A stretch of 64,000 nt of DNA from Calorimonas adulescens (GTDB lineage Bacteria; Bacillota; Thermoanaerobacteria; Thermoanaerobacterales; UBA4877): positions 1-64,000 of the forward strand of contig NZ_VTPS01000015.1 of the NCBI RefSeq assembly GCF_008274215.1. The letters are read 5' to 3'. A program made the translations under genes and the position numbers. Every line of letters starts with the position of its first letter. The first letter of the stretch is position 1. Positions 11,825-41,845 of the stretch are shown piece after piece. The notes under the pieces are model-generated. The model was given only the letters and a program-made list of their open reading frames with translations. It was not told where the DNA came from and did not search any database.

Positions 11825-12334
11825 CTATACCTTTCCTATAGCTTTTTGGGCCTGATATGCTATATTGTATACTGCATATGTCACGACAGTATTTATTGCA
11901 GCAGTTGGTATGACCACCGTGGTCACCAATACTGAGAAGGCGAGTGGTAGACCACCTACAACAGCAGAAGCTATGGCAAGAAACACTATGCCGCTTTCCA
12001 TTGTGCCAATGAAAGCAATCACAGGTATAGCAATATGCCTGTTAAACCTTGCAGTGAGCCTTATGAGCGTAACAACAACAAAGGCTGTTATTATTTCCTC
12101 GATGAAGTTTGCCACCTGACCGCCAGGGAAGGTTGTTGTCAAGGCTGCAAATATTCCTCCTAAGAAGCCACCAAGCAGTGCATTTTGGTATACCGGGTTA
12201 ATAAACAATGCAACGAATAGCATGGCGAGAAGGAAGTTTGGTTTCATACTACCCATTATGGGTGGTGTTATCTGATGGAGTACAAGGCCAATAGCCATTA
12301 GAAGGGCTGTGAGTATACTGTCCCTCAATTTCAT
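11825..12334 (-). CDS. trpP: Tryptophan transporter TrpP-type (ECF-like small membrane protein)
   Basis: Predicted Trp uptake protein: 169 residues, about five membrane segments, beginning MKLRDSILTALLMAIGLVLHQITPP, a form typical of TrpP/YhaG-related clostridial proteins. Segment GSMKPNFLLAMLFVAL is also family-like. The ATG at 12334 follows AAGGAGTG. An upstream in-frame extension exists but has no RBS. The upstream T-box has a Trp (UGG) specifier, which is the strongest evidence for the substrate. Expression should rise when tRNA-Trp is uncharged. Confidence 0.87.
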   Translation of the reverse strand: MKLRDSILTALLMAIGLVLHQITPPIMGSMKPNFLLAMLFVALFINPVYQNALLGGFLGGIFAALTTTFPGGQVANFIEEIITAFVVVTLIRLTARFNRHIAIPVIAFIGTMESGIVFLAIASAVVGGLPLAFSVLVTTVVIPTAAINTVVTYAVYNIAYQAQKAIGKV

Positions 12335-12423
12335 AATACCAACACTCCTTTTTAAATTTAATAGTAATTTTAGTGGTATCATATATCCTTCACGTCATAG
12401 GCCATCACCCCATGTCCGATAAA

Positions 12424-12680
12424 ATAAAAAAGCCTTTCGTCCCTATAGGGACGAAAGGCTATCTTCCGTGGTGCCACCCTTATGAGGTTTCCCTCACTCA
12501 TCCGGGTACTAACATACCCTGTCCTTGTGATAACGGAGGACACGTCCGTGATGAGCTACTTATATTTCGCCCACCCTTCTAAGGAGCCCATTCACTCATG
12601 GATAAGGTATCGCCTTTCCACCGCCGGCGACTCTCTTTGACCTATCCTTTGAGTTACTATTCTCCCTCATCGAATTTATT
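12424..12680 (-). promoter_or_regulatory. T-box riboswitch, tryptophan-specific
   Basis: On the minus strand the leader carries the T-box antiterminator sequence AGGGTGGCACCACGG (12480 down to 12466) followed by a 13-bp terminator stem and TTTTTT (12460 down to 12424). In Stem I the internal loop is bounded by GGAG/CTCC and CTCA/TGAG. Its 5' side has the AGTA motif and its 3' side reads TGAATGG-G, placing UGG (12590-12588) at the specifier position before a purine. The T-box bulge TGGC would pair with GCCA, agreeing with the G73 discriminator of tRNA-Trp. It regulates trpP by antitermination. Confidence 0.93.
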
Positions 12681-29465: not shown

Positions 29466-30560
29466 ATGGATAAAATGATACTGGTCATTAACCCTGGCTC
29501 AACATCAACCAAGGTTGCCATCTTCAAAGGGGCGGAAAACTTTAAATCCAGGGTACTTACTTATTCTTCAGATGACTTGAAGGGATATAACAGTGTTATT
29601 GAGCAGTTTGAGATGAGGCTATATGACATATTGAAGTGGCTGGAGCAAGAAGGGATAGACATAAAAGACTTTGAAGCCGTTGTGGGGAGAGGCGGCATGG
29701 TAAGGCCTATACCGGGTGGTACTTATATTGTGACCGATGCGCTGGTAGAAGACCTTAAAAATCAAGTTGGTGGTGAACATGCCTCAAACCTTGGTGGGCT
29801 TCTTGCAAAAAATATTGCAGATAGGGCAGGCATTCCAGCATTTATAGTCGACCCTGTTGCAGTGGATGAATTTGAGGATATAGCAAGGATTTCAGGGATG
29901 CCTGAAATATCAAGGATGAGTCACGCTCATGCGCTGAATATAAAGGCTGTAGCAAGGAAAGTGGCCCACAAAATGGGTAAACCGCTGGCTGAACTAAATC
30001 TAATCATTGTGCACCTGGGTGGCGGCATATCAGTGAGTGCACTTAGGGGTGGGAGGCAGATTGATGTAAACGATGCCAATGAGGGTGGCCCGTTTTCCCC
30101 TGAAAGGACAGGTTCATTAGCTGCGTTGGACCTTGTGAGGCTATGTTATTCAGGCAAGTATACCTATTCCCAGATGAAGAAAAAAATAGTTGGGCATGGT
30201 GGTATTACAGCCTATTTGGGCACTAACGACATCAGGGAGGTTGAAAATAGGATAGAGACTGGAGATAGGTATGCTGAACTTATATTTAATGCCATGGCCT
30301 ATCAGGTGTCCAAGGAGATAGGCTCTATGTCTGCTGTACTTTATGGCAAGGTAGACGCTATAATCCTTACCGGCGGGGGTGCCTATTCAAAACGTATCAC
30401 TACATTGATAGGAGACAGGGTGAGGTTTATAGCACCAGTCATAATAGAGGCAGGAGAAGATGAACTGAGGTCTCTTGCTGAGGGTGTGTTCAGATTAATA
30501 AATGGTGAGGAGAAACCAAAAATATATGAGGATGAGGTGATAAAAATTGAGAAGTTTTAA
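29466..30560 (+). CDS. buk: Butyrate kinase (copy 1)
   Basis: Converts butyryl- or branched-chain acyl-phosphate plus ADP to acid plus ATP. The 364-residue ASKHA-fold protein has the phosphate-1 motif [14 protein letters not shown] (about 6-19), the IVDPVAVDEF segment (about 138), [11 protein letters not shown] (about 180) and AIILTGGGAY (about 300). RBS AGGAGTG lies before ATG. It overlaps ptb. Given the Leu/Val dehydrogenase and Vor genes, isobutyrate, isovalerate or 2-methylbutyrate are likely products. Confidence 0.94.
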   Translation: MDKMILVINPGSTSTKVAIFKGAENFKSRVLTYSSDDLKGYNSVIEQFEMRLYDILKWLEQEGIDIKDFEAVVGRGGMVRPIPGGTYIVTDALVEDLKNQVGGEHASNLGGLLAKNIADRAGIPAFIVDPVAVDEFEDIARISGMPEISRMSHAHALNIKAVARKVAHKMGKPLAELNLIIVHLGGGISVSALRGGRQIDVNDANEGGPFSPERTGSLAALDLVRLCYSGKYTYSQMKKKIVGHGGITAYLGTNDIREVENRIETGDRYAELIFNAMAYQVSKEIGSMSAVLYGKVDAIILTGGGAYSKRITTLIGDRVRFIAPVIIEAGEDELRSLAEGVFRLINGEEKPKIYEDEVIKIEKF

Positions 30561-31446
30561 TGATATATTAGAAACGCTTAAAGGGACTGAGAAAAGGGTT
30601 ATATCCGTAGCCTGTGCCCAGGATGATGATGTCCTTTTAGCTGTGGAAAGTGCAAGAGAGAGGGATATAGCTGACGCTGTCTTGGTGGGCGATGCTGACA
30701 GGATTAGAGAGATAGCTGAAGAAAAGGGGATAGACCTGAACAACTACAAGATAGTTGATATAAAAGATAAAAATGAAGCCGCTCGAGAAGCTGTGAGAAT
30801 AGTATCTACAGGACAGGCTGACATGCTTATGAAGGGTATAATAGGTACAGCAGACTTTTTGAGGGCTGTTCTTGATAAAGAGATTGGCTTGAGGACAGGC
30901 AGGGTACTTAGCCATGTGGCTGTGTTTGAGATACCAGGTTTTGACAGACTGATGCTCTTGACTGACGTAGCCATGGTTATAGCGCCGGACCTGAAGACAA
31001 AGATAGATATCATACAGAATGCTGCAGAGGTGGCAGAAAAGATTGGCATAGCAAAGCCAAAGGTTGCGGCACTGGCCGCAGTTGAGGTGGTAAATCCTGA
31101 CATGCCATCTACCTTAGATGCTGCTGCACTTGCCAAGATGTCTGACAGGGGACAGTTAAAGGACATCATCGTGGATGGGCCACTAGCACTCGACAATGCA
31201 GTTTCTCTTGAGGCAGCCAGGCACAAGGGCATTACCAGTGAGGTAGCGGGTATGGCTGATATTCTTCTTGCACCAGATATAGAAGCAGGTAATGTGCTAT
31301 ACAAGGCTATAACATATTTTGCTGGAGGGATGGTTTCTGGGATTGTGATGGGGGCTAAGGCACCCATAATACTTACCTCCAGGTCAGACAGCGATGAGGC
31401 AAAGTTAAATTCAATTGCACTGGCAACCCTGGTTTCTTCAAAATAG
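30547..31446 (+). CDS. ptb: Phosphate butyryltransferase (copy 1)
   Basis: Exchanges CoA for phosphate on butyryl- or branched-chain acyl-CoA. The 299-residue PTA/PTB-fold protein includes DMLMKGIIGTADFLRAVL, the catalytic-region LSHVAVFEIPGFDRLMLLTD and IVMGAKAPIILTSRSD. It starts with TTG 30547 behind GAGGTG, inside the buk 3' end. A second ptb lies at 40809. Both are followed about 25-27 nt after the stop by the homologous structured RNA described separately. Confidence 0.94.
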   Translation: MRSFNDILETLKGTEKRVISVACAQDDDVLLAVESARERDIADAVLVGDADRIREIAEEKGIDLNNYKIVDIKDKNEAAREAVRIVSTGQADMLMKGIIGTADFLRAVLDKEIGLRTGRVLSHVAVFEIPGFDRLMLLTDVAMVIAPDLKTKIDIIQNAAEVAEKIGIAKPKVAALAAVEVVNPDMPSTLDAAALAKMSDRGQLKDIIVDGPLALDNAVSLEAARHKGITSEVAGMADILLAPDIEAGNVLYKAITYFAGGMVSGIVMGAKAPIILTSRSDSDEAKLNSIALATLVSSK

Positions 31447-31471
31447 TATTCAAACCCAATGATGATTATAC

Positions 31472-31713
31472 TGTAAGAAGTCTATGAAGAATGATAGCAA
31501 GCATCAAATACGACTTTAAAGAGAGTCTATGATACTCTTGAATTCGTGGCAAGTGTAGCTGGGGCATCTGGCATGGACGCCAGATGAGCCGACCTGAGGC
31601 AAGGACGCCGAATGGAGGTGTACCCGGCGGAACGCAGCCACGAATTATTAGAGTATCAGGACGAACGATCAGGGGCATGGATGCTGCTATCATTCGCAGA
31701 ATGCCTTCTTACA
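31472..31713 (+). ncRNA. Structured intergenic RNA downstream of ptb copy 1 (long form)
   Basis: A 317-nt gene-free gap holds nested helices. P1 pairs 31472-31480 with 31705-31713 (9 bp, perfect). P2 pairs 31490-31505 with 31680-31694 (15 bp, one bulged A). P3 pairs 31531-31538 and 31541-31550 with 31637-31646 and 31650-31657 (18 bp, perfect, one internal loop). P4 pairs 31565-31572 with 31579-31586. P5 pairs 31606-31610 with 31625-31629. Positions 31484-31567 are about 75% identical to the gap after the second ptb, and P2 shows two compensatory changes between copies. The upstream strand of P3 can alternatively pair with GAGT at 31523-31526. No known riboswitch was recognised. Strand is inferred from operon direction. 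Confidence 0.7.
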
Positions 31714-31763
31714 TCAGAATCAATACGGGTTTGATATAAATTTATCACAGGGGGTATTTATGA

Positions 31764-32828
31764 ATGGAACTTTTCAGCTATATGCAAAAGTATGACTATG
31801 AGCAGGTGGTTTTCTGCCATGACAAGGCATCAGGGCTGAAGGCAATTATTGCTATCCATGACACCACACTGGGGCCTGCGTTGGGTGGCTGCAGGATGTG
31901 GACCTATTCCTGTGAAGATGATGCCATAATGGATGCCTTGAGGCTTGCAAAGGGCATGACATACAAGAATGCTGCTGCCGGGCTCAATCTCGGTGGTGCA
32001 AAGACAGTTGTGATAGGTGACCCCAAAAAGGATAAATCTGAAGCACTCTTCCGGGCACTTGGAAGGTTCATTCAGACATTAAATGGCAGGTATATAACCG
32101 CTGAGGATGTAGGCACCAATGTAAGGGATATGGAGTATATAAGGATGGAAACCAAATATGTTGCAGGTCTTGGTGAAGGCAGCGGCGACCCATCCCCATT
32201 TACTGCACTGGGTGTGTTTCAGGGGATAAAGGCTGCCTGCAAAGAGGTGTATGGTAGCGACGATCTCACAGGAAGGAAGGTTGCCATACAGGGGATAGGA
32301 AACGTAGGGTATAATCTTGCCAAGCTTTTGAAAGAGGCTGGTGCAGAGCTAATTGTAACAGATATTTTTGAAGATAACGTGAGAAGAGCAGTTGAGGAAC
32401 TGGGTGCAAAAGCTGTAAAAGCAGATAAAATATTTGAAGTGGAATGTGACATATTTGCTCCTTGCGCCTTGGGTGCGGTGATAAATGATGATACCATTGA
32501 CAGGTTGAAATGTAAGATAGTAGGCGGTTCTGCCAACAACCAGCTTAAGGAGGATAAACATGGCGATATGCTGCAGCAGAGGGGCATACTCTATGTACCG
32601 GACTATATAATCAATGCTGGTGGTGTTATAAACGTGGCAGCAGAGTTTGAACCGGGTGGATACAGAAAAGATAAGGCTACCAGAAAAGTAGAGGCCCTGT
32701 ATGATGCTGTAGTGGATGTTATAGAAATTTCAAAGAGGGAAAATATCCCAACGTACAAGGCTGCTGACAGATTGGTAGAAAATAGGATAAATGTTATTGC
32801 CAATGTAAGGAACAACTATATAAGATAA
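31764..32828 (+). CDS. bcd: Leucine/valine (branched-chain) amino-acid dehydrogenase
   Basis: NAD-dependent oxidative deamination of Leu/Val/Ile to the 2-oxoacids. The 354-residue Glu/Leu/Phe/Val dehydrogenase has the catalytic Lys motif NLGGAKTVV (about 74-82), dinucleotide fold [11 protein letters not shown] (about 176) and SANNQL (about 258). ATG at 31764 lies behind GGGGGTATTT. It lies after the structured RNA and before a second buk. The substrate range among branched-chain (and Phe) amino acids is inferred from operon partners. Confidence 0.92.
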
Positions 32829-41720: not shown

Positions 41721-41845
41721 GATGTGGGAACCAATGAAAGATGACATACAACATCAAATTCATCCTTAAAGCGAGTCCATGATACTCTTAATAAGTGGCG
41801 GGTGCAGCAGGAGCATAGATGTTGCTGTCATGCATGTATTGCATC
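41721..41845 (+). ncRNA. Structured intergenic RNA downstream of ptb copy 2 (short form)
   Basis: Homologue of the RNA at 31472-31713. Positions 41734-41816 align to 31484-31567 at about 75% identity with one gap, and 41812-41833 align to the 3' end of copy 1. The helix P2 is ATGACA-tac-AACATC (41741-41755) with GATGTT-gc-TGTCAT (41818-41831). Relative to copy 1 one T-A pair has become C-G and one G-C pair has become A-T, both sides changing together. The outer pairs GATG/CATC and CAAT/ATTG close it. The GAGT/ACTC hairpin (41773-41776 with 41784-41787) is conserved. The roughly 111-nt inner module of copy 1 is absent. It lies 33 nt before iorA. Confidence 0.68.

Follow-up and report, generated by a model that had tools for sequence, protein, structure and literature searches.

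A well-structured RNA downstream of ptb in Calorimonas adulescens is a mobile member of the TwoAYGGAY family and may bind CsrA

Identity of the RNA between ptb and the dehydrogenase gene

The gap between ptb and a Glu/Leu/Phe/Val-family dehydrogenase gene in the window, the whole stretch of 64,000 nucleotides analyzed here, holds a genuine member of an already described RNA family, TwoAYGGAY (RF01731), with a pronounced fold and evidence of mobility. The feature is probably a MITE-like element whose inner RNA binds CsrA.

The RF01731 covariance model matched window positions 31516-31671 (+) over its entire length (model positions 1-168 of 168) with 58.1 bits, compared to a curated gathering cut-off of 43 bits, and was the only Rfam model above its cut-off in this gap. 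The preliminary description had regarded the stretch as an undescribed RNA without a known family and had named comparison with Rfam beforehand as decisive; by this yardstick of its own, the match refutes the claim of novelty. The family was first published in 2010 (Weinberg 2010) and was judged there to be probably an RNA, neither cis-regulatory nor a switch (PMC2864571). Rfam files RF01731 under cis-regulatory; the family is neither a riboswitch nor a T-box, and the Rfam T-box model had no match here. Like the Rfam family, the window element displays two hairpins with ANGGAY loops, AUGGAC at 31573-31578 and, in the relaxed form with N = A, AAGGAC at 31601-31606. The model spans only the inner 168 nt, however, whereas the element measures about 262 bp.

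A December 2014 paper proposed TwoAYGGAY as a CsrA-binding sRNA from the loop motif alone (PMC4333381). In their available parts, neither this paper nor the discovery paper (PMC2864571) presents the family as a mobile element that has repeats at its ends, duplicates its target or relies on a partner transposase, and no report of its mobility was found in the openly searchable literature, a search to which subscription papers and the 2010 supplement did not belong. New here is that TwoAYGGAY is recognised as a transposon-like element, one that targets terminator hairpins in at least two lineages; the comparisons also support the CsrA hypothesis put forward before.

Extent and parts of the element

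End-to-end alignment with 25 other copies from the window's own genome (G000) and its relative G001 (the MAG 'Thermoanaerobacteraceae bacterium Yes75-04') delimited a complete element. The features referred to below are the following:

30547-31446, +: ptb, phosphate butyryltransferase, upstream neighbour (TIGR02706, 450.8 bits)
31449-31457, +: TTCAAACCC, left arm of a bracketing inverted repeat, paired with 31727-31734 in the predicted fold
31462-31723, RNA-sense strand +: complete TwoAYGGAY element, about 262 bp
31463-31480, +: left terminal inverted repeat TGATTATACTGTAAGAAG (family end TGATTYWGGTGTAAGAA)
31565-31586, +: hairpin 1, loop AUGGAC closed by C-G (31572-31579), invariant loop bases, covarying stem
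31597-31610, +: hairpin 2, loop AAGGAC closed by C-G (31600-31607), GGA and the following G invariant in 33 cores
31605-31621, +: alternative hairpin, loop GAAUGGA, in the minimum-energy fold, 93.8% of cells paired in 26 copies
31705-31722, -: right terminal inverted repeat, TGATTCTGATGTAAGAAG on the - strand (31706-31722, one mismatch to the family end)
31727-31734, +: GGGTTTGA, right arm of the bracketing inverted repeat in the predicted fold
31764-32828, +: Glu/Leu/Phe/Val-family dehydrogenase, downstream neighbour (PF02812 and PF00208)
41734-41816, +: second window copy, internally deleted, core lost (75% identity to query bases 13-96 only)
12351-12386, no strand assigned: empty site in the window, occupied by a TwoAYGGAY copy in G001 (L070 versus L211)

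The terminal inverted repeats of the window element are imperfect and flank the covarying RNA core. With at most two mismatches, the family end TGATTYWGGTGTAAGAA occurred 20 times in G000 and 43 times in G001, compared to 8 and 3 occurrences of the reversed control. The originally proposed extent, 31472-31713, correctly placed a structured RNA but stopped short of the unit, which reaches from about 31462 to 31723.

An orthologous element resides at the identical locus in G001 (91% identity over the 242-base query), and the insertion is considered old because both genomes have it at one place. A search for an orthologous ptb-dehydrogenase gap lacking the element found none; the sole close ptb relative is G001, which itself carries the element. 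The target duplication of the window copy has decayed, and the inverted repeat TTCAAACCC / GGGTTTGA that brackets it may represent a target stem-loop split on insertion. The second copy in the window, which had been thought to keep the fold, turned out to be an internally deleted remnant that lacks the AYGGAY core and folds no better than shuffled sequences (z = +0.3).

Fold and covariation

The predicted fold of 31444-31740 had a free energy of -120.8 kcal/mol compared to a mean of -73.6 for shuffled sequences (z = -10.0), and none of 200 shuffles was as stable. It comprised a 9-bp outer helix, a bulged helix of about 15 bp, a long inner helix and two small hairpins, and all helices of the closed P1-P5 domain in the preliminary description were thereby recovered.

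In the consensus structure of 26 copies (G000 and G001), 96.1% of cells were paired and changes on both sides were present in 23 of the 57 pairs. Derivation of this structure from the same 26 sequences inflates the percentage paired, while the double changes exceeded both controls, with 0 of 500 shuffles reaching the observed covariation and structures slid by 1-3 columns pairing 29-42% of cells. The hairpin 1 stem displayed compensatory change in seven of its eight pairs among 33 cores from many families. The all-lineage MAFFT alignment aligned the outer helices poorly and RNAalifold retained hairpin 1 alone, so that own-lineage copies were used to assess covariation of the complete structure.

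The GGA hairpins at 31605-31621 and 31597-31610 are mutually exclusive in the own lineage, where they compete for one GCC strand, and may constitute an alternative fold.

Spread of the family and mobility in the lineage of the window

BLAST detected the element at 25 places in G000, some of them pieces of one copy, and the covariance model yielded at least 32 matches in G001 and between 6 and 33 in most genomes of a genus of the same order (g5), which we take to be probably Thermoanaerobacter. TwoAYGGAY was carried by 51 of the 399 sampled genomes of the phylum, and a DNA-level search of plasmid and phage collections gave no match. Many copies were truncated and had lost both loops. A diverged subfamily with arms such as GGCATGTAAAGGC was present in G001 (L199, L202, L204, L205 and L208), some of its copies being composite.

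Mobility was demonstrated by comparison of related genomes. Elements of the own lineage end in GATTYWGGTGTAAGAA and are flanked by target duplications of about 7 bp, such as ATTACAT (L066), AATTTTT (L207) and AAAACAT versus AGAACAT (L201), with the ends judged by eye. Matching empty sites in G000 were identified for five G001 copies, and the window itself contains an empty site at 12351-12386. Dispersed copies, terminal inverted repeats and empty sites in relatives strongly support the suggestion of a mobile structured element that the preliminary description had listed among its options.

Close to the empty site at 12351-12386, a T-box leader (115.7 bits) was noted at 12444-12679 (-), upstream of the ORF at 11825-12382 (-).

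Prokaryotic MITEs are short, non-autonomous elements with terminal inverted repeats, many intergenic copies and deletion derivatives. TwoAYGGAY is alike in all of these respects; it has terminal inverted repeats, no coding capacity and dispersed copies, and the family displays target-site duplication as well as empty sites in relatives. In contrast to MITEs, its core is conserved as an RNA across many families of the phylum and its ends differ by lineage.

IS1182-type ends and duplicated hairpins in other lineages

The g5 copies carry the ends CAGACTGTAGACAAA / CAGTTTGTTGACAAA, and a 1.57-kb multicopy element in this genus has the same kind of ends and encodes an IS1182-family transposase (489.7 bits versus a cut-off of 270). 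A duplicated stem-loop, in many cases with the T-tract of an intrinsic terminator, flanked 18 of the 21 g5 copies; two of these 18 have their flanks in common and could represent a single segmental duplicate. Eleven g5 loci had a matched empty site in a g5 relative; the overlap of 20-34 bp folded into a hairpin at these loci, and each duplicated segment was more stable than 98.5-100% of the other windows in its own locus. Similarly, G154, a genome from a distant family, had duplicated stem-loops at four of its five copies and IS1182-type ends on all five, with the exact left end on four. Since an IS1182-family insertion sequence has such ends, the element is likely moved by a transposase supplied in trans, a mode of mobilisation supported by the shared ends in g5 and by the ends in G154. 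Insertion at stem-loops or in intergenic DNA, which spares genes, was demonstrated for g5 and is supported for G154.

The IS1182 element of g5 had itself duplicated a hairpin in one copy (L151). Another copy (L154, G012:C1:2127006-2128971) is centred in the palindrome GATAAGCTAGAT / ATCTAGCTTATC, unlike the hairpin duplication at L151, and split this palindrome in the same manner as supposed for TTCAAACCC / GGGTTTGA around the window copy. Relatives of IS1182 recognise stem-loops, and a published model covers both outcomes, duplication and splitting (PMC5678879; PMC12056078). The g5 TwoAYGGAY elements resemble the IS1182/IS1272 family in their ends (IS1182) and in stem-loop targeting, but the stem-loop is duplicated rather than replaced as in IS1272 (PMC5678879; PMC12056078). 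TwoAYGGAY further differs from IS1182 and IS1272 in that it has no transposase inside; in the window lineage its ends are different as well and the duplications measure about 7 bp.

Within the TwoAYGGAY copy at L153 (G012:C1:286123-286853), as well as in similar pairs of about 331 bp in g5, a 67-bp hairpin insert (CCCGGCACTCAAGTAAG ... CTTACTTGAGTGCCGGG) was observed, which resembles another mobile unit of smaller size lodged within TwoAYGGAY.

No pair of own-family ends 1-2 kb apart that could mark an autonomous insertion sequence was found in the lineage of the window, and a search for IS1182 in 16 genomes yielded, in G000, nothing but a decayed remnant that lacks the ends of the element. 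Ends common to TwoAYGGAY and an IS1182 element of the same genome were thus present in g5 and not in G000, and the window copy was not filed as an IS1182 MITE because the sole IS1182 remnant of its genome lacks the family ends. The IS1182-type end pattern was likewise absent from most of the other lineages searched, for which pairwise comparison of copies suggested other, partly palindromic ends with approximate boundaries. The simplest reading of these sequence comparisons would be that transposon ends of more than one type have carried a single RNA core; alternatively, the ends may have diverged rapidly.

Invariant loops and a possible interaction with CsrA

Among 33 cores from many families, the sole invariant columns were A, GGA and G in loop 1 and GGA and G in loop 2, the closing G following GGA in the hairpin loops. 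Two A(N)GGA hairpin loops were displayed by 37 of 38 predicted folds, and the motif was confined to the sense strand, with both loops intact in the window copy. In the 26 own-lineage copies, A112, G114, G115 and A116 of loop 1 were invariant and N was variable, and the loop-2 motif was lost in about five (alignment judged by eye). The CsrA/RsmE consensus is a hairpin with an ANGGAN hexaloop in which the A and GGA are contacted (PMC7652899), and the TwoAYGGAY hairpins have loops of this form on stems longer than in most SELEX CsrA ligands.

The host genome encodes CsrA (G000:C2:88510-88656, PF02599, E = 3.7e-21). CsrA was present in 49 of the 51 genomes with TwoAYGGAY and in 236 of the 348 others (odds ratio 11.6, p = 3.9e-6), a comparison that ignores phylogeny and motility; by genus, the co-occurrence had p = 2e-4. 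Any flagellar gene might give this pattern. The two TwoAYGGAY genomes without a CsrA match, G214 and G266, are 94% and 75% complete, and the absence may result from genome gaps. From loop conservation we strongly infer that the TwoAYGGAY hairpins would bind CsrA.

The family could also be a mobile element and nothing else, its loops conserved for the transposase or another DNA-level factor and CsrA irrelevant. We think this rather unlikely. It would agree with the demonstrated mobility, terminal inverted repeats and hairpin-targeted duplications, with an element orientation that is random relative to genes and with the commonness of CsrA, found in 285 of all 399 phylum genomes. It does not readily accommodate identical loops that are invariant in lineages with unrelated element ends, or a motif on one strand only that fits the bases contacted by CsrA/RsmE and leaves N free (PMC7652899).

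As a putative CsrA-binding RNA, TwoAYGGAY resembles the CsrA-sequestering sRNAs CsrB, CsrC and RsmZ in presenting GGA in hairpin loops and more than one site per RNA. It differs from them in that each unit has two main sites, the copies are numerous and scattered and the hosts are Firmicutes instead of Gammaproteobacteria; moreover, a search at the ptb locus gave no convincing promoter belonging to the element.

Genomic context and transcription of the copies

Copies of the family adjoin unrelated genes in either orientation, and the gene orientation around them showed no bias (37:29 and 30:32). Because orientation is random with respect to flanking genes, transcription of many copies may run antisense or be lacking altogether. 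At the ptb locus, the search for signals belonging to the element revealed no terminator and only weak promoter-like matches.

These results bear on two functions that had been proposed at the outset. The idea of a trans-acting RNA made from the ptb 3' end may hold in the form of a CsrA-binding RNA, as envisaged earlier (PMC4333381). In its stricter form, a domesticated sRNA processed as a single species from this 3' end, with its own targets and independent of mobility, it appears highly improbable: the copy was retained at the same G001 site with both loops intact, yet nothing sets it apart from the rest of the family, and neither a promoter nor a terminator that would convincingly belong to it was detected. 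Control of the dehydrogenase by a cis-regulatory leader (riboswitch, attenuator or T-box-like) was dropped on account of the unbiased orientation and is very doubtful, for although the elaborately folded element lies co-directionally upstream of this gene in both G000 and G001, its family is dispersed beside unrelated genes, no terminator was found between it and the dehydrogenase, the T-box model did not match and the discovery paper argued against cis-regulation (PMC2864571).

Proposed mechanism and implications

The MITE-like element with a CsrA-binding RNA that we favour would act in four steps. A TwoAYGGAY core flanked by terminal inverted repeats is dispersed in the genome, its mobility being demonstrated by the empty sites in related genomes. 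An IS1182-type transposase would move it in trans, as indicated for g5 by empty sites and for G154 by ends and flanking duplications; these indications come from g5 and G154, the lineage of the window having different ends and target duplications of about 7 bp. Insertion at intrinsic-terminator hairpins with duplication of the hairpin, demonstrated for g5 and supported for G154, spares genes and places the element in transcribed 3' regions. Transcription would then proceed from the neighbouring gene, as suggested by the lack of a convincing promoter of its own, here probably within the ptb-dehydrogenase message, and the resulting RNA would present two A(N)GGA-loop hairpins to which, judging from their conservation, CsrA may bind. 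In a final and speculative step, the many copies might jointly soak up CsrA; an equally speculative alternative is that the host message tolerates the inserted RNA because CsrA binds it.

A broader version, in which TwoAYGGAY is a CsrA decoy that spreads via different transposases, its insertions, often in terminator hairpins, turn message 3' ends into CsrA-binding sites and the genome-wide copies tune CsrA in Firmicutes, is tentative, and we consider it unlikely as a whole. To our knowledge, the antagonist of CsrA described to date in Firmicutes is the protein FliW.

With these results, an RNA family listed in 2010 as of unknown function gains a concrete identity as a transposon-like element and a testable partner in CsrA. 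Its structured RNA core rides on apparently unrelated transposon ends, and duplication of whole hairpins at terminators lets it enter transcribed regions while genes stay intact. Should the link to CsrA prove true, Gram-positive bacteria would have in TwoAYGGAY an input to CsrA that acts at the RNA level.
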